A DNA stretch of 64,000 nt from contig CACYHA010000006.1 in the NCBI GenBank assembly GCA_902774035.1, forward strand, positions 124,001 to 188,000, read 5' to 3'. The notes beneath the pieces were generated by a model. It saw only the letters and a list, made by a program, of their open reading frames with translations. It made no database searches and was not told the DNA's origin. Numbering within the stretch: the first letter of the stretch is position 1; each line of letters opens with the position of its first letter. This stretch comes from Oscillospiraceae bacterium (GTDB lineage: Bacteria; Bacillota; Clostridia; Oscillospirales; Acutalibacteraceae). Both the position numbers and the translations under genes were made by a program. Positions 2,805 to 63,983 of this stretch are shown in pieces.

Positions 2805-3800
2805 ATGTTGTATCTCGCACTCTCTCACGCCGGAAAGGTCACGGTCACGACCCTGCTCATCGTTCTCGCGGTGCTGCTGGTGGTCTGGCTGGGCGTCGGC
2901 TTTGTCTTTTTCTTCATCGGCCTCGGCTCCAAGCGCCGGGAAGACGAAACCGTGCCGAACAAAGGCAGCCTGTTTGACCGCAACAAGGACAACGTCAACA
3001 TTCAGAACGGCTACAAATGGTACGACAACACCTACAAGCAGCCCGTCACCATTCCCGGAACCCACGGAAAGACCCTGCACGCGATGGAGTTCCGCAACCC
3101 CTCCAACAGCAACAACTGGGCGATCGTGATCCACGGCTGGACCAACTGCAAGCGCGAGATCGCAAGCTATGGCATGGAATATTACCGCCGCGGCTTCAAC
3201 GTGCTGATCCCCGACCTGCGCGGCCACGGCGCCAGCGAAAGCAAGTATGTCTCCATGGGCTGGCTCGACCGTCTGGACATCGTGGACTGGATCAACAGCC
3301 TGGTGAAGGAGAACCCGAAGGTGAAGATCGTGATCCACGGCGTTTCCATGGGCGCGGCGACCACGATGATGACCACGGGCGAAGAGCTGCCGAAAAACGT
3401 GCTCTGCGCGGTTGAGGACTGCGGCTTCACCGGCGTCTACGACATTTTCACCGACCAGTGCATCCGCACCTACCATGTGCCGCCGAAGATCATCATGCCC
3501 GCGGCGAACATCGCCAACCGCATCCTCAACGGCTTTTCCTTCAAAAAAGCCTCGGCGGTGGAGCAGCTCAAAAAGAGCAAGACCCCGACCCTCTTCATGC
3601 ACGGCGACGCGGACGATTTTGTGCTGTTTGAAAATCTCGACAAGGTCTATGCCGCCTGCGCCGCGCCGAAGGAAAAATACGTGATCCACGGGGCGGAGCA
3701 CGCCGTTTCCTCCCACTGGTTCCACGAGGAATACTGGAACCGGGTGGATCAGTTCGTCGCCGAATACTTCGGGGACGAGGCTGTGAAGATCAAGAATTGA
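2805..3800 (+). CDS. Membrane-anchored alpha/beta hydrolase
   Basis: 331 residues. An N-terminal hydrophobic segment (about 13-40) with no cleavage site suggests a signal anchor. The hydrolase core shows VIHGWTNCK (oxyanion strand-loop, about 108-116), DLRGHGASE (137-145), the nucleophile elbow GVSMG with Ser181, an acid region HGDADDF (about 265-272) and a C-terminal His in GAEHAVSSHW. This matches the YqkD/BAAT-like group of esterases/peptidases in Clostridia. AAAGGA precedes the ATG by 10 bases. It is transcribed alone: a promoter lies upstream and a hairpin follows the stop. The substrate is not predictable. Confidence 0.88.
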   Translation: MLYLALSHAGKVTVTTLLIVLAVLLVVWLGVGFVFFFIGLGSKRREDETVPNKGSLFDRNKDNVNIQNGYKWYDNTYKQPVTIPGTHGKTLHAMEFRNPSNSNNWAIVIHGWTNCKREIASYGMEYYRRGFNVLIPDLRGHGASESKYVSMGWLDRLDIVDWINSLVKENPKVKIVIHGVSMGAATTMMTTGEELPKNVLCAVEDCGFTGVYDIFTDQCIRTYHVPPKIIMPAANIANRILNGFSFKKASAVEQLKKSKTPTLFMHGDADDFVLFENLDKVYAACAAPKEKYVIHGAEHAVSSHWFHEEYWNRVDQFVAEYFGDEAVKIKN

Positions 3801-6392: not shown

Positions 6393-6417
6393 ACAAACAA
6401 CATCCATGAGGTGACGG

Positions 6418-6568
6418 GGCTGTTGGATTTATCGAAAAACGTCAAAGCAAACAATCTTACTTTTTAGAAAAAACACAAAGGAAAGAAAGCGCTGAAATCA
6501 CAGAATCACTCTGTGGAAAGCGCTTTCTCTTTTATTAGCTTTGACGTTTTTCGCGAAATGCACCAGCC
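6418..6568. mobile_element. MITE-like repeat, short copy (151 bp)
   Basis: The ends are 31-bp imperfect inverted repeats (6418-6448 and 6538-6568). The inner 16 bp, CGAAAAACGTCAAAGC, match perfectly and the outer 15 bp, starting GGCTG, have four mismatches. A second, longer copy lies at 44519-44922 with the same ends and core; this copy lacks about 240 bp of its left arm. There is no coding capacity. It sits just after the ATPase gene and its core doubles as a terminator. Confidence 0.75.
6484..6532 (+). terminator. Intrinsic terminator inside the MITE-like repeat
   Basis: AGAAAGCGC at 6484-6492 pairs with GCGCTTTCT at 6520-6528, with an inner stem CACAGA/TCTGTG, followed by CTCTTTTATT. It probably ends the ABC transporter operon. 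Confidence 0.7.
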
Positions 6569-6570
6569 GC

Positions 6571-6693
6571 TTTTTCGCGCTGCAACGCAGCGCGAAAAAA
6601 GGGCGGCGGCGGAACCGCGCGGCCCGGGCCGCGCGAAAACGAAGCAGGGCTTCGTTTTGCCCCGTGCATGGCACGGGGCGTTCCGCCGCCGCC
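6571..6693. repeat. Cloverleaf inverted-repeat element, copy A
   Basis: A flanking hairpin (TTTTTCGCGCTGC at 6571-6583 with its complement at 6587-6599) precedes the core at 6602-6693. In the core a perfect 14-bp outer stem (6602-6615 with 6680-6693) encloses three hairpins: 6616-6635, 6636-6658 and 6659-6679. No unpaired base is left at the four-way junction. Two related copies occur at 29839-29982 and 45810-45956. It lies between two convergent genes and has no open frame of note. I do not recognise the family. Confidence 0.85.
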
Positions 6694-6726
6694 TTCGCCG
6701 CTCCGGCGATGGTGAAAATGTAAGCA

Positions 6727-8313
6727 TCAGAATATCCTGCTCGATTTGATCGGCAGCAGGAACAGGCTTTGCAGGTCCTCGAAAATGCGCTTGATCCGGC
6801 CGGTAAAGCTCGTTTCGCGCACTGTGTTGCCCAAAAGGTCGCAGTTGTTCTCTTCTGTCAGCGGCACAAGGTGTCCGTCCGGCAGATAGACCATGTATTG
6901 CGGATAATCCGGGTTGTCGCGGACCGTCGGCTGGCCGTCGGCGCAAAGGATCCACTGCAGCATCTTCTGCTCTTCCGGCGTCTTTTCCGGCTTGCCGGTG
7001 ACCGTGTCGGTGTGCATGGAGTTTTTGATAAACCACGTCTGTTCGGGGAAGGCGCAGGTGGAGGCGTCGATTTTACGGTCGGGGGAGATGTAGTCCTTTT
7101 CCGGATGCATCGCCTGGACATAATCTGCCGGCAGCGTTTCATTGTACGGTGCGCAGGTGGCGCCCATGGAGCTGTATTTCGCATCGACAACGAAGTCAGA
7201 CTCCGTATGGCGGGACTCCACGATCGGCGCGAGCGGATAGCCGTATTTTGCAACCACGGAAAGGCCGACGCCCTTGTCCATCACCGACTGCATGGTCTCG
7301 ACCTCGTGCTCCTGCACGGTGTGGTAGAAATCGACTTTTTCATAGAATTCCTCCGTCACTACGCCTGCGGCGAACCCATCGCGCACGCTGTAGTAGTGCT
7401 CGGCGGGGATCAGCGCCCAGAAGCCGGGGATCCGGCCGAAGATGTAGGGCATGGATTCCTCATACAGCCGCTCGAACAGGCCGAACAGGAGCTTGTCGGT
7501 AACGCCGACCAGCAGATCCACGGCGCCTTCCTGATACAGCACGTCCACGGCGGCTTTGGCAAGCTCGCCTTTCAGGTCGGTGCCGAGCATGGCGTTGACG
7601 GCGGCCATGGTGGTCTCGCTGTCCATGCCGAGGTTGTTTTCAAACGGGTCGCCGCAGGAGCTGGAGCCGTTCAGCGCGCCCATGTAAAGGATCACGTCGT
7701 CCAGATACTCGTCGCCGAAAAGGTACATATACGTGGAAGCGACGCAGGTACCCATGCTGTGGCAGATGAGCTTGACTTTTTTTGCGCCGGTGCAGTCGCG
7801 TACATATTCGATAAAGCTGTGCAGTTTGTTCGCAAGCGTTTTCAGATCCAGCCGCCAGTCATAGCTGTAATAGATCGGATCCTCGGCGGTGTAGCCCGTG
7901 TCCTTGTGATATTTTTCGCGGACCTCTTCCGGTGTGGGCCAGGAATAAGCCGTGCCGCTGTGGTCGTTGATGGGAACGCCGTTTTCGTCACAGCGGATGC
8001 CGTTCATCAGGCGCAGCGCCGCTTGGTTCAGCGGATACTTCCAGTTGACAGAGGCGCCGCGGGTCAGATTCTTTGCCGCAGGCGCCAACGCATCCTTTAT
8101 AGCGGCTGCAATCAGGTTTTTGCTCGGCGGAAACAGTGTTTCACCGGTTGCCTTGTCAATGGTGTTTGTGGACATGAAGCCGGCAACGAAGATCACCGGC
8201 ACCTTGTTTTTCTCGCTTTTGGCTGCGGACGCCGACATCAGGCTGCCAAGCAGCAGAAGAATTGCCAGAACTGCGCATAGCGCACGTCCGCGCAGACGTT
8301 TTTGAATTTGCAT
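6727..8313 (-). CDS. Secreted LCAT-type lipase/acyltransferase
   Basis: 528 residues from the ATG at 8313, which has GGGGAGG nine bases upstream. A signal peptide (about 1-30) ends in SASA. The mature part opens with KVPVIFVAGFMS, the lid/oxyanion region of the lecithin:cholesterol acyltransferase family, then YYSYDWRLD and the nucleophile elbow CHSMG with Ser186. The likely Asp and His lie in the C-terminal half. The tail is a short basic-hydrophobic helix (GRIKRIFEDLQSLFLL), resembling tails of other secreted proteins in this window. It is the last gene after the CDP-glycerol transferase cluster, consistent with envelope lipid work; the substrate is unknown. Confidence 0.82.
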   Translation of the reverse strand: MQIQKRLRGRALCAVLAILLLLGSLMSASAAKSEKNKVPVIFVAGFMSTNTIDKATGETLFPPSKNLIAAAIKDALAPAAKNLTRGASVNWKYPLNQAALRLMNGIRCDENGVPINDHSGTAYSWPTPEEVREKYHKDTGYTAEDPIYYSYDWRLDLKTLANKLHSFIEYVRDCTGAKKVKLICHSMGTCVASTYMYLFGDEYLDDVILYMGALNGSSSCGDPFENNLGMDSETTMAAVNAMLGTDLKGELAKAAVDVLYQEGAVDLLVGVTDKLLFGLFERLYEESMPYIFGRIPGFWALIPAEHYYSVRDGFAAGVVTEEFYEKVDFYHTVQEHEVETMQSVMDKGVGLSVVAKYGYPLAPIVESRHTESDFVVDAKYSSMGATCAPYNETLPADYVQAMHPEKDYISPDRKIDASTCAFPEQTWFIKNSMHTDTVTGKPEKTPEEQKMLQWILCADGQPTVRDNPDYPQYMVYLPDGHLVPLTEENNCDLLGNTVRETSFTGRIKRIFEDLQSLFLLPIKSSRIF

Positions 8314-29838: not shown

Positions 29839-29982
29839 CGCGCTGCTGCGCAGCGCGCAGGGGCGGCGGCGGAACCGCGCGGCATTTGCCGCGCGAAAAA
29901 CGAAGCGTGCTTCGTTTTTGCCCTGTGCAATCGCACAGGGCGTTCCGCCGCCGCCTGTTCCGCGCAGCAAAGCTGCGCGGAA
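29839..29982. repeat. Cloverleaf inverted-repeat element, copy B
   Basis: The core is 29862-29955: a 14-bp outer stem (29862-29875 with 29942-29955) around hairpins 29876-29895, 29896-29919 and 29920-29941, with no unpaired junction bases. Flanking hairpins are CGCGCTGC at 29839-29846 with 29850-29857, and TTCCGCGCAGC at 29958-29968 with 29972-29982. The outer stem equals copy A, while the loop bases and some stem pairs differ. It lies in the serC-methyltransferase gap, 21 bases from the methyltransferase stop. Confidence 0.85.
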
Positions 29983-30003: not shown

Positions 30004-30819
30004 TCAGAATCCGTACCGCAGCAGCACAAAGTCGATCTCCGTTTCCAGCGTTTCCAGCCGGTCGAGCTTTGTAAGATCGCTCTGCGACGTGCGGTAGGCG
30101 TAGGGCGTCATGGAAAACAGTGCGCGGATGTCTTCTGCGCTTTGCAGACGGATCGTCTTTTTTACGCGAGTACGCTCCAGCAATCGCAGCCTGCCGCCGT
30201 CAGGCGCCTGCTCGTCGTTGCGGTAGGGCGTGTCATAGACCGCCGCTTTCAGGGAAAACAGGTGGTCGCGGCCGGGGATCACGGAAATCAGCGCGCCGTC
30301 TTTTTTCAGCACACGGGCAAACTCCGGCGCGTGGAACGGTGCAAACAGGTGCATGGCGAAGTCGACGGAAGCGTCCGGCAGGGGGATCGCCGCGAGGTTT
30401 GCCACAAAAAACAGGGCGTTCGGGATCTTCCGCTTCGCCGCGAGGCGCACCATCTCTTTCGAAAGATCAAAGCCGAACAGACGGCAGGGCTTTGCCGCGG
30501 CGACACACTGCGCGTAGTGGCCTTCGCCGCAGCAGATGTCCAGAACGGTCGGCGCGTCGCCGGTCAGGGCTGCGGCCTGCCGCGCGACCTCCCGGGCAAG
30601 CGCGTCAAAATAGCCGCGCTCCAAAAAGGCGTGCCGCGCACGCGCCATGGCGCGGCTGTCGCCGGTGCGCTCGCCGCTTTTGTGCTGCCCGGTCAAAAGG
30701 TTGACATAGCCCTCTTTCGCAAGGTCAAAGCTGTGCCGGTTTTCGCATTGCAGGGCGCCGCCGAAAGGCTGCAGCGGCGCTTTGCAGACCGGACAAACCG
30801 GAAAAAACTGCGTGTTCAA
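30004..30819 (-). CDS. rlmA: RlmA-like 23S rRNA guanine-N1 methyltransferase
   Basis: 271 residues from a TTG at 30819, which has AAAGGAGAGG close upstream; no ATG gives the right N-terminus. It opens with a zinc ribbon (CPVCKAPL, then CENRHSFD) and the RlmA block DLAKEGYVNLLTGQ. The SAM site follows (VLDICCGEGHYAQ), then LFGFDLSKEMVRLA. RlmA enzymes methylate G745 or G748 in the exit tunnel of 23S rRNA and can influence macrolide/tylosin sensitivity. Which position is modified cannot be told here. Confidence 0.85.
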   Translation of the reverse strand: MNTQFFPVCPVCKAPLQPFGGALQCENRHSFDLAKEGYVNLLTGQHKSGERTGDSRAMARARHAFLERGYFDALAREVARQAAALTGDAPTVLDICCGEGHYAQCVAAAKPCRLFGFDLSKEMVRLAAKRKIPNALFFVANLAAIPLPDASVDFAMHLFAPFHAPEFARVLKKDGALISVIPGRDHLFSLKAAVYDTPYRNDEQAPDGGRLRLLERTRVKKTIRLQSAEDIRALFSMTPYAYRTSQSDLTKLDRLETLETEIDFVLLRYGF

Positions 30820-30901
30820 CTTTTCCTCTCCTTTTTCTTGCAATCTTCGACATTTTATGATAGTATAACGAAAGAACGCCGTTTCGTCAAGGAGGATCGC
30901 C

Positions 30902-44518: not shown

Positions 44519-44922
44519 GGGCTGTTGGATTTCGGTGACGTTCCATAACGAAGGATTGGTTTTTGAAGGCAAATTTTCCCAAACGCTGTGCCGCCATCCT
44601 TGAAAACCGGCAGGTTTCCTGCGGTTGTCGGCTTTGCGTTGTGAAAAAATTTGTCCTTCAAAAACTGCTTTGCACCTGAAAAGAGGCGCTTTTCAGGCAA
44701 TCCCTCGCTATGGGACGCCACCGTTAGATGAAAACGGCGTTTTCTTCGACCGAAGGCTGTACAAAAGTACGCCTAGGGCGAAAAAACGTCGAGTCAAAGC
44801 AAACAATCTTACTTTTTTGAAAAAACACAAAGGAAAGAAAGCGCTGAACTCACAGAATCACTCTGTGGAAAGCGCTTTCTCTTTTCTTTGCTTTGACGTT
44901 TTTCGCGAAATGCAACAGCTCC
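44519..44922. mobile_element. MITE-like repeat, long copy (about 404 bp)
   Basis: The left end GGCTGTTGGATTTCG and the right end (inverted GGAGCTGTTGCATTTCG) form an imperfect terminal repeat. The right 130 bp match the 6418-6568 copy closely, including CGTC/CAAAGC arms (44779-44800 and 44890-44905). The extra left 240 bp hold several short hairpins (for example TGAAAAGAGGCGCTTTTCA near 44680) but no credible gene. No target-site duplication was identified by eye. Confidence 0.72.
44836..44885 (+). terminator. Intrinsic terminator inside the long MITE-like repeat
   Basis: AGAAAGCGC at 44836-44844 pairs with GCGCTTTCT at 44872-44880, followed by CTTTTCTTT. It has the same structure as the one at 6484-6532. 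Confidence 0.7.
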
Positions 44923-44931
44923 ACTTAGGGG

Positions 44932-44960
44932 TTGCAAGAGAAGGCAGACTGTGTTATAAT
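44932..44960 (+). promoter_or_regulatory. Sigma-A promoter of the SDR gene
   Basis: TTGCAA at 44932-44937, 17-bp spacer, TATAAT at 44955-44960. Confidence 0.78.
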
Positions 44961-45809: not shown

Positions 45810-45956
45810 CTCGCACGGCTGCGCCGTGCGAGATGCGGCGGCGGGACCGCGCAGCCCGGGCTGCGCGATCCATGTGCGCGTTCGCGCACATGGTGCCTCG
45901 TGCGGTCGCACGAGGCGCCCCGCCGCCGCTTTTTGCCGCGCAGCGAAGCTGCGCGG
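45810..45956. repeat. Cloverleaf inverted-repeat element, copy C
   Basis: The core is 45835-45929: the outer stem 45835-45847 with 45917-45929 (one A/C mismatch) encloses hairpins 45848-45867, 45870-45893 and 45895-45916. Flanking hairpins are CTCGCACGGC at 45810-45819 with 45823-45832, and CCGCGCAGC at 45936-45944 with 45948-45956. The second hairpin is unrelated in sequence to copies A and B (CCATGTGCGCG instead of AAAACGAAGC), yet still pairs fully. It lies between convergent genes. Confidence 0.85.
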
Positions 45957-61652: not shown

Positions 61653-63983
61653 ATGAAAAAACTAACTGCATTTTTGCTCACACTGCTCATGCTCATGAGT
61701 GCTGTACCTTTGGGTATGATCAACGTGAGTGCTAAAGCAACCGCAAAGACAGATTTTGTTAGTTTTGCTTATATCAAAAACGGCGGCGAAGGAACCATGG
61801 AAAGCGATATATATTGGGGTAAATGGCCTCAATATGTCACTTTTAAATCAAATGCGTTTACAAGAAAGGGTTATATATTCAGCGGATGGAATGCATTTCG
61901 CTGGTCTGATGAAACCTGGTATGTTTCGGGAAAGGGCTGGAAAACCGAAGCAGAAATAAATAAGGGAAAACTGACGAAAAAAGTCTATTCCAGCGGAACG
62001 AAGTATGAACTGAACAGTTCATGGAAAAATGCAGCAATATTCGATAAAAACGGGAAACAGACAAAAGGTGAAATCTTTTGGCTTTATGCTGTGTGGGAGA
62101 AAGCAACCACTCCCACTGTCACCTTGCGATCTCCGTCCCATATTGAAACCAACGCCGCAACTGTTCATCTGACTGCAAAGAATCCCGGCAAGTTGCTGAT
62201 TACCGCTCGCGGCGTGCAGGTGAAGAAGAAAGGGGCATCCTCCTGGGCAAAAACATACAGCGAAGACCTTTCTAAAAAGAGCTATAACAAGGATACCGAG
62301 ATCACCGGTTACTTCGACATCGGCAGTGGCAAAGAAGTTAACTATGCACTTTCGGCCGGAACACCCTATGAATATCGTTGCTTTGTTACCAGCGGTGGGA
62401 CCAACTATTATTCCAATGTTTCAACATTTACAACAAAGTCAGTTCTTAAAGATTCCTGGTCAAAATACAACGCAACTAACATCACCGAGACAAACGCAAA
62501 GATCGAAGCGCGCGTGACGTTCAACAAGAGTGTCAAGCATGAAAAGTGCGGCTTCTATCTGGGCACACAGTCCGGCAAGCTGACGAAAAACGCAAAGTAC
62601 GATACCATCAACAAGAATCGGACGTATACCGATATGTGGTATGACCTGAACAAATGGTACGGTAAGCTGACGCCCGGCACGACCTATTATTATCAATTCT
62701 TCATTGTTGCGAACGGAACGGAATATAAGAGTGCCGAACAATCTTTCAAAACCAAAGGCACTCCAGTAACGGAGTATAACTTCACTGTGAAGTACAATGC
62801 AAACGGCGGAACCGGAACCATGGCCGACCAAACTGCAAAAGGCGGTCAGGTTCTTACCATGACACAAAACCAGTTTAAGCGTGCGGGCTATGATTTCGTC
62901 GGCTGGAACGTCAAGCGCGGTTCCGACAGCAAATGGTTTGTGAGTGGCCAGGGCTGGAAAACCGAATCGGACATCAGCAAAAACAAATGGACGAAAAAAG
63001 TATATGGGAACGGGATCACCTTTACATTCGATTCTTCATGGTCAAGCGGCGCAAAACCAACTGACACATTTACCTTCTATGCTGTCTGGAAAGAATGCGA
63101 GCACGTTTGGAACGATGGTATAGTCACCAAAGAGCCGACCACCAAAGCGACCGGCGTGAAAACATTTACCTGTGAACGCTGCGGCAAAACAAAAACCGAA
63201 AAGATTCCGAAAATCACAGCCTTTGCCATCAAATATGTGGCTAACGGCGGAAAGGGAACAATGGCCGGAACCACTGTTCAAACCGGTGACACGTTTACAC
63301 TTCCCGAATGTGCGTTCACGAAGGGCGGCGCTTTCTTTAGCGGTTGGGCGGTCAAGCGCAGCTCTGACAGCAAATGGTACACAACGAACGGTACATGGGA
63401 AACAGCAAAAGCCATTACGACAAATGGCCTGTCCAAGGAAGTCTTTGAAGCCGAATCGGAATATGAGCTGAACGAAGATTGGATCAACGGCGCCAAGAAC
63501 ACAGATACTTATACGTTCTATGCCGTTTGGATCGCCTGTGAGCACGAATGGGATGACGGCGAAGTGACAAAAGAGCCGACCACCAAGGCAACCGGCGTGA
63601 TGACCTATACCTGTGAGTTGTGCGGCGCAACCAAGACAGAGAAGATCCCGAAGCTGGCGAGTTATCAGATCAAATATGCGGCCAATGGCGGCAAGGGCAC
63701 GATGACAGGGACAAAGGTTTTGAAAGACGATGCGATTACTCTTTCCGAATGTGAGTTCACCCGTGCCGGTTATACATTTAACGGTTGGATGGTCAAACGC
63801 ACTTCCGACAGCAAATGGCTCACCGAAGAGGACGGCTGGAAGACAGATAAGGTCATCAAAGCGGAAGAACTGACAAAAACCGTGTTTGACAGCGACACGG
63901 AGATCTCTTTGGATGAGGACTGGATCAACGGCACAAAGAATGTGGACACCTACACGTTTTATGCTGTTTGGGTCAAAGAATAA
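61653..63983 (+). CDS. Secreted repeat protein with InlB-type and FN3-like modules
   Basis: 776 residues. The signal peptide (MKKLTAFLLTLLMLMSAVPLG...VSA) is nearly that of the preceding gene product. Four long InlB-like repeats of about 85-100 residues (GGxGTM...AFTRKGYxFSGWNxxR...DxKW...TFYAVW) lie at about 35-150, 375-480, 520-625 and 665-774. Two FN3-like domains occupy about 155-260 and 265-370. Two CxxC linkers (EHVWNDGIVTKEPTTKATG...CERCGKTKTEKIP and its near-copy CELCGATKTEKIP) separate the last three repeats. It has no lipobox, sortase motif or C-terminal helix. It ends 17 bases before the window edge. Confidence 0.85.
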   Translation: MKKLTAFLLTLLMLMSAVPLGMINVSAKATAKTDFVSFAYIKNGGEGTMESDIYWGKWPQYVTFKSNAFTRKGYIFSGWNAFRWSDETWYVSGKGWKTEAEINKGKLTKKVYSSGTKYELNSSWKNAAIFDKNGKQTKGEIFWLYAVWEKATTPTVTLRSPSHIETNAATVHLTAKNPGKLLITARGVQVKKKGASSWAKTYSEDLSKKSYNKDTEITGYFDIGSGKEVNYALSAGTPYEYRCFVTSGGTNYYSNVSTFTTKSVLKDSWSKYNATNITETNAKIEARVTFNKSVKHEKCGFYLGTQSGKLTKNAKYDTINKNRTYTDMWYDLNKWYGKLTPGTTYYYQFFIVANGTEYKSAEQSFKTKGTPVTEYNFTVKYNANGGTGTMADQTAKGGQVLTMTQNQFKRAGYDFVGWNVKRGSDSKWFVSGQGWKTESDISKNKWTKKVYGNGITFTFDSSWSSGAKPTDTFTFYAVWKECEHVWNDGIVTKEPTTKATGVKTFTCERCGKTKTEKIPKITAFAIKYVANGGKGTMAGTTVQTGDTFTLPECAFTKGGAFFSGWAVKRSSDSKWYTTNGTWETAKAITTNGLSKEVFEAESEYELNEDWINGAKNTDTYTFYAVWIACEHEWDDGEVTKEPTTKATGVMTYTCELCGATKTEKIPKLASYQIKYAANGGKGTMTGTKVLKDDAITLSECEFTRAGYTFNGWMVKRTSDSKWLTEEDGWKTDKVIKAEELTKTVFDSDTEISLDEDWINGTKNVDTYTFYAVWVKE

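Follow-up and report, generated by a model that had tools for sequence, protein, structure and literature searches.

A dispersed intergenic repeat with a cloverleaf architecture in an Oscillospiraceae genome

What kind of element folds into a closed four-way junction beside the 3′ ends of ordinary genes? In the window analyzed here, a 64-kb stretch of the genome of a rumen bacterium (Oscillospiraceae), a preliminary description made from the letters alone had pointed out three such structures (copies A, B and C; Table 1), had taken them for one repeated family and had suggested either a DNA cruciform used by a transposase or tyrosine recombinase or a structured RNA. We find that the three copies belong to a dispersed, high-copy, non-coding and intergenic family.

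Table 1. Coordinates of the cloverleaf copies and their flanking hairpins in the window (R1, covariance model of the family, see text)
Feature	Position	Strand	Basis
Copy A, 5′ flanking hairpin, 13-bp stem	6571..6599	+	folding
Copy A, cloverleaf core	6602..6693	+	folding, structure-only scan, R1 match
Copy A, core, outer stem	6602-6615/6680-6693	+	
Copy A, core, three arms	6616-6635, 6636-6658, 6659-6679	+	
Copy A, 3′ flanking hairpin, weak, 6 bp	6695..6709	+	folding
Copy B, 5′ flanking hairpin	29839..29857	+	folding
Copy B, cloverleaf core, perfect 14-bp outer stem	29862..29955	+	folding, R1, relatives' site
Copy B, 3′ flanking hairpin	29958..29982	+	folding
Copy C, 5′ flanking hairpin	45810..45832	+	folding
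Copy C, core: 11-bp outer stem, then A.C mismatch, then junction	45835..45929	+	
Copy C, 3′ flanking hairpin	45936..45956	+	folding

The cloverleaf copies and their family

Folding of copy A returned the perfect cloverleaf that had been claimed, with a 14-bp outer stem, arms of 8, 10 and 9 bp, loops of 4, 3 and 3 nt and a junction without a single unpaired base; as single-stranded DNA, it is predicted to fold at −55 kcal/mol (z −8.4; none of 200 shuffles was equal or better). The recurrence of this perfect fold holds for copy B (same layout, z −10.1 for the DNA fold) but not for copy C, which shares the layout (z −8.8, DNA fold) except that the A.C mismatch of its outer stem lies beside the junction and thus leaves junction bases unpaired in the predicted fold. 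The fourth hairpin noticed just outside the core is present, and each copy has a fifth one on the other side, weak in the case of copy A; once the outer hairpins are included, z ranges from −9.8 to −11.2 for the three copies. A structure-only scan of the window found three cloverleaves, exactly A, B and C, and none appeared in dinucleotide shuffles of the window (10 shuffles, 5 with a second version of the scanner and 20 at looser settings). All three copies lie beside gene 3′ ends, as had been described, A and C between convergent genes and B 3′ of the gene at 30004-30843.

An exact motif comprising the left stem and first arm has 35 matches in the genome of the window (G000; 2.3 Mb, 48 contigs), 13 in G018 (RUG13829, a Ruminococcaceae MAG) and 12 in G028 (RGIG3704, a goat-rumen MAG), the latter two being rumen relatives, and no match in the other 56 of the 59 genomes searched. 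We then used R1, a covariance model built from 28 of the first 30 loci, with two loci carrying a long middle arm left out. The window copies, all of which are among the 28 sequences behind the model, score 102.6 (copy A, matched at G000:C6:130603-130702), 97.9 and 84.7 bits. R1 yielded 105 rows in G000, collapsed by reading to about 73 non-overlapping places, and 63 and 52 rows, counting both strands, in G018 and G028, respectively; the genus is represented by 34 genomes, and the remaining 31 gave no match, up to 116 of at most 4312 candidates having been scored in each. Across the order, none of 393 other genomes gave a match, a weak negative because 10 candidates per genome were scored. Among GTDB contigs, the exact pattern marks 31 stretches; RUG13829 and RGIG3704 account for 28, and the other three come from Hyphomicrobiaceae, Steroidobacteraceae and Myxococcota. 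The exact pattern has no match in IMG/VR, and distant blastn with window positions 6400-6760 found none in phage and plasmid collections. The three MAGs are separate and have sites in common, which argues against an assembly artefact.

Consistent with the preliminary description, neither the window nor six loci matched Rfam at the gathering score, the best sub-threshold hit of copy A reaching 20.3 bits against a cut-off of 52. The idea that the copies might be unrelated, independent terminators fails, since they align, covary and match the family model, which also bears out their assignment to one family.

For further analysis, we took 94 copies, 73 from G000, 12 from G018 and 9 from G028; counts of layout and of the element finder rest on 93 of them, one of the two L120 copies being absent. 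The junction test was passed by 74 copies, the same number that the finder placed, and the 5′ hairpin was found in 68, the 3′ hairpin in 67 and both in 58. Two classes can be told apart. Class I, which includes A, B and C, is about 150 nt long and consists, from left to right, of a T-rich segment, a hairpin, the cloverleaf, a second hairpin and an A-rich segment, usually with a 5′ hairpin of type P (..CACGGC..GCCGTG..) and a 3′ hairpin of type Q (..GCAGC..GCTGC..); the ends of the element are a T-run and an A-run together with two different palindromes. In class II, the middle arm is long and imperfect, and the flanking hairpins are as a rule absent. Typing of the hairpins by a crude motif test gave the order P-core-Q for 25 of the 73 G000 copies and Q-core-P for 9, two of which are doubtful (L058 and L084, where the 5′ hairpin merely contains the motif); the core can therefore be inverted relative to the flanking hairpins.

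Some copies of G018 and G028 seem to be part of larger structures. In L113 and L114, an outermost stem of the GCGCTTTTC..GAAAAGCGC type seems, by eye, to wrap the entire hairpin-cloverleaf-hairpin unit and would thereby set one four-way junction inside another. Some copies (L107, L108, L113, L114, L117 and L120) have additional upstream sequence in common, as much as about 440 nt, and in L113 this sequence is seemingly inverted on the other side, so that the element may lie within a larger inverted repeat.

Genomic setting and pairing of the arms

Overlap with a called gene does not exceed 30 nt for any of the 94 copies, with genes called by our own codon-usage script. The 73 G000 copies comprise 36 in convergent, 32 in co-directional and 3 in divergent gaps and 2 unassigned, as against 12 convergent, 25 co-directional and 11 divergent among 48 background gaps of at least 60 nt (copy-bearing gaps included). 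For the 71 assigned copies, this corresponds to a convergent excess (Fisher p 0.007) and a divergent deficit (p 0.003). A nucleotide-level blastn comparison of the flanks for a recurrent neighbor found other repeats.

A structured RNA or a 3′-UTR element, whether terminator, RNA stabilizer or small RNA, would be in keeping with the very stable fold and with the terminator-like hairpin found on one side or the other of 22 of 40 copies. However, in co-directional gaps the strand of the element relative to the genes is random (15 versus 17), and a T-run follows the element's own hairpins in 1 of 40 copies in the forward and 1 of 40 in the reverse direction, unlike an intrinsic terminator. T-runs precede the element in 26 of 40 copies, and it is A-runs, not T-runs, that follow the outer hairpins (26 of 40). 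The element therefore often has a terminator next to it without resembling one itself.

The pattern of substitutions in the arms bears on the same question. In alignment A3, 97.9% of 1110 cells are paired and 19 of 40 pairs show two-sided change, with 119 two-sided against 6 one-sided cells; in the control, where the partner was slid by 1-3 columns, pairing falls to 33-48%. Under selection on RNA, G.U should be tolerated and A.C should not. In the 70-copy alignment A4 (69 of the 90 loci L031-L120, most long-middle-arm loci left out, and 107 rows cut to 70 by keeping the best strand per place), we counted 22 G.T and 20 of the mirror-image A.C among 2789 cells. The corresponding numbers are 6 and 8 of 1110 cells in A3, and 5 and 7 of 3127 pairs when the main family is scored copy by copy (74 copies). 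Thus, the arms of the main family change on both sides together while G.T remains about as frequent as A.C, so that pairing seems to be kept at the level of DNA and not of RNA. In a second, sequence-unrelated family found in G004 (see below), G.T exceeds A.C (11 versus 4 of 408 cells), the direction predicted for RNA, in a small sample (binomial p 0.12); copy by copy, that family has 1 G.T and 3 A.C among 590 pairs. Together with the random strand and the lack of an Rfam match at the gathering score, these counts make a structured RNA very unlikely, and of the two suggestions of the preliminary description the DNA cruciform is the better one. Its interpretation as a whole is partly supported. 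More generally, strong covariation can arise at the DNA level and is by itself no proof of a functional RNA.

Paired changes are also seen between orthologous copies. Site B differs between G000 and G018 by four two-sided and no one-sided changes, and the L107/L115 orthologues by two and none. For L111/L116, the count is three two-sided and seven one-sided changes in a shifted alignment, each copy having its own junction (with one mismatch in L111), and for L271/L273 it is one and three, with a middle arm that is much rewritten. At site A, G018 and G028 differ by no two-sided and one one-sided change, and the loop of hairpin 3 is inverted, GTT versus AAC. Passages of two published studies describe how template switching can create stems and fix their pairing in one event (PMC8794818) and can invert spacers (PMC8604942). 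The arm changes between orthologues are of the kind that template switching can leave as a footprint.

Site occupancy and other cloverleaves in the genus

Ten sites were examined, three in the window, four in L308 and three in L309, and six could be aligned in one or both relatives; for the other four, synteny was lacking or assignment was not reached. Each species is represented by a single genome in this comparison, and identity is about 80%. At site A, every one of the three species has a copy: that of G018 is class I, with the core on the opposite strand, and G028 is occupied as well. Site B holds class I in G018, whereas in G028 the element contains the start of one contig and the end of another. 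In G018, class II cloverleaves with a middle loop of 33-34 nt occupy C10:22055, C5:31197 and C10:40373; G028 has a similar class II copy at C10:40373 and no cloverleaf at the first two. C10:38664 carries a cloverleaf in neither relative. Class II at orthologous sites was called with a long-loop setting; when the seven intervals were shuffled 140 times, this setting gave 4 hits. Of the three G028 sites that have no cloverleaf (C10:22055, C5:31197 and C10:38664), two show a terminator-like hairpin. The same site can thus differ in occupancy between species. Conversely, A, B, C10:40373, L111/L116 and L107/L115 are common to species, so that some of the family seems to be old and to have been inherited vertically.

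Further afield, in the approximately 400 nt to the right of the gene that lies left of copy A, the sister species G012, G009 and G001 lack a cloverleaf and show a terminator-like hairpin instead, and G022 has a different, GC-rich cloverleaf, recognized by folding only. At L346 (positions 3380-3697; G028:C80), where G000 has a cloverleaf copy, we observed a long, almost perfect inverted repeat, TACCCGCTGATT.., and an inverted repeat resembling it follows a class II cloverleaf in L414.

Cloverleaves are not confined to the main family. A scan of 60 stretches (1.05 Mb) from other genomes of the genus found 12 cloverleaf-like junctions, compared with none in one shuffle: three in G004, three in G022, one in G026, two in G016 and three in G018/G028. 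The last three are the site A copy in L276 and the mutually alignable L271 and L273; the two AT-rich matches in G016 and one from a later scan of G004 (L315) are weak and were set aside. Later scans added one in G004 and one in G032. The 100 kb scanned in each of G001 and G019 contained no cloverleaf, nor did 40 kb of G012 or, outside the genus, 150 kb of Escherichia coli K-12 and 80 kb of G203, which belongs to another genus of the same family.

The junctions of G004 form a family of their own. Across the 34 genomes of the genus, their GC-rich outer-stem pattern, GCGGCTCCC..GGGAGCCGC, was found at 18 places, all of them in G004, and seven G004 stretches have 38-44% GC despite the GC-rich outer stem of the cloverleaves. 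Four of the 18 places lie on G004:C1 (L387-L390), a 169-kb contig of an AT-richer genome. When ten copies are aligned, 15 of 41 pairs have changed on both sides; this alignment (A5) covers 10 of 15 loci, five with differing arms having been left out, and the finder placed 12 of the 15. Short-word blastn between the main family and that of G004 gave 192 rows at E ≤ 1, the best 12 of which span 10-18 nt, with a best E of 0.003. Multiple copies were shown for the main family and G004 only, the matches in G022, G026 and G032 being single or dissimilar.

That the cloverleaves of related genomes are unrelated in sequence suggests that the shape, and not the letters, is what is kept. The genus might accordingly host several unrelated cloverleaf families, each spread within its genome because an enzyme of the host or of the element would recognize the folded junction and not the sequence, with replication-templated rewriting of the arms changing the letters and keeping the shape; we put this forward tentatively, as a possibility that we would not expect to hold.

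Nature of the element

The explanation that we consider best, with a little over even confidence, is that of a non-autonomous mobile DNA repeat defined by its shape, the arms of which are kept paired by templated copying. Copies would spread within the genome in the manner of a MITE or REPIN, through a hairpin- or junction-recognizing activity supplied in trans, and would survive where insertion is harmless, between 3′ ends and beside terminators. Once folded, the palindromes could be subject to replication that templates one arm on the other, so that arms would stay paired, flip and get rewritten. Several observations count against such a mobile repeat: movement was not seen (with one genome per species and about 80% identity), class II copies have no flanking hairpins, the G.T excess in G004 is in the direction of RNA, and the distribution of Y1, the one transposase family examined, does not follow that of the repeat within the genus. 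The longest direct repeats at the element ends average 3.2 nt, compared with 2.9 after permutation (4 of 300 permutations as high), and reach at least 6 nt in 1 of 40 copies.

The alternative that fares best, although unlikely, is a host-serving cruciform between convergent genes, acting as a supercoiling sink, a site for a topoisomerase or nucleoid protein, or a buffer between transcription units, with its shape under selection. The strong bias to convergent gaps, the occupation of site A in all three species and the cloverleaf shape of sequence-unrelated repeats in the genus would all fit such a function. However, R1 has no match in 31 of 34 genomes of the genus, any insertion that is tolerated would be expected to avoid promoters, and G028 has no cloverleaf at three of the six compared sites, so that no single copy is needed.

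Less likely again is a REP/REPIN proper, that is, a GTAG- or CGTC-tagged palindrome moved by a RAYT (TnpA-REP, a Y1 HUH transposase). The likeness is considerable: REP, BIME and REPIN elements are high-copy, intergenic, palindromic and biased to 3′ ends, their families are limited to some species, and REPs occupy the same niche, mostly convergent or co-directional gaps (PMC3733652). G000 also encodes a Y1 match (54 bits, in a 205-aa open frame) that we take as RAYT-like, along with a second fragment of 26 bits, and passages of PMC6006769 state that IS200/IS605 transposases recognize subterminal secondary structures. However, a REP is one palindrome of 20-40 bp, whereas the present element of about 150 nt combines three arms, an outer stem and two hairpins. 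Moreover, among 40 class I copies of G000 with both hairpins, GTAG/CTAC occurs within 12 nt to the left of the 5′ hairpin in one and CGTC/GACG in none, and the numbers to the right of the 3′ hairpin are none and two, respectively. Nor did we find a RAYT linked to the repeat. A Y1 domain occurs in 21 of the 34 congeneric genomes, and R1 has no match in 18 of these; G028 has the repeat, yet its Y1 match scores 22.3 bits, or 24.9 with neighbors, at a cut-off of 23; and of the six Y1 matches that G000, G018 and G028 have between them, the five for which 3.5-5 kb of surrounding sequence was covered have no cloverleaf there, the sixth being in G018:C4. Membership among REP/RAYT systems therefore fails on two features, the tag and the linked RAYT, and the known REP families, a match to which would have counted against the preliminary description, fall away as far as they are testable; given the REP-like niche, the element may function in the way of REP-type repeats even though it is not one of them. 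The main text of the REP survey, which names Proteobacteria, Cyanobacteria, Chloroflexi, the PVC group and others, does not contain the term "Firmicutes" (PMC3733652).

Besides the structured RNA discussed above, purely mutational palindromes, made and perfected by template switching and homogenized by gene conversion with no transposition, are just as improbable: both kinds of footprint attributed to template switching in the studies cited above, fixed pairing and inverted spacers, are present here, but such a process alone does not place about 70 near-identical outer stems, with the same order of arms, at unrelated loci.

Seen as a mobile repeat, the element resembles other known systems in part. 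Mitochondrial double-hairpin elements consist of two hairpins and not of a closed four-way junction. They and other repetitive hairpin-forming elements are comparable in being hairpin clusters that are regarded as mobile in the portions of the literature consulted. In integrons, the folded strand of attC is the substrate of recombination and is tied to cassettes and the integron integrase, whereas the window copies lie beside ordinary chromosomal genes, with matches to ABC_tran, LCAT, Aminotran_5, Zn_ribbon_RlmA/methyltransferase, adh_short and DcuC. The MITEs derived from bacterial insertion sequences are likewise short, non-coding and dispersed; the difference is that here the arms change in sequence and yet stay paired.

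Definitions of intergenic palindromic repeats usually rest on sequence. Such repeats are known; what is new is the cloverleaf architecture, and a literature search of limited reach found no description of a cloverleaf repeat of this kind. This architecture outlasts changes of sequence, as seen among orthologous copies and again among the unrelated families of a single genus, and this makes two questions testable: whether mobile DNA of bacteria can be recognized by the shape of a junction, and what share of "compensatory" changes stems from template switching rather than from selection on RNA.

Two other repeats were observed in the window. Adjoining copy A on the left is a second, MITE-like repeat of about 145 nt (6416-6585 and 44793-44937, 91% identical) with long inverted ends starting GGGGCTGTTG, and similar sequence occurs near other cloverleaf copies and in several congeners. 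At 62872-63983, a 441-bp unit is present in three imperfect tandem copies inside the called gene 61716-63983.
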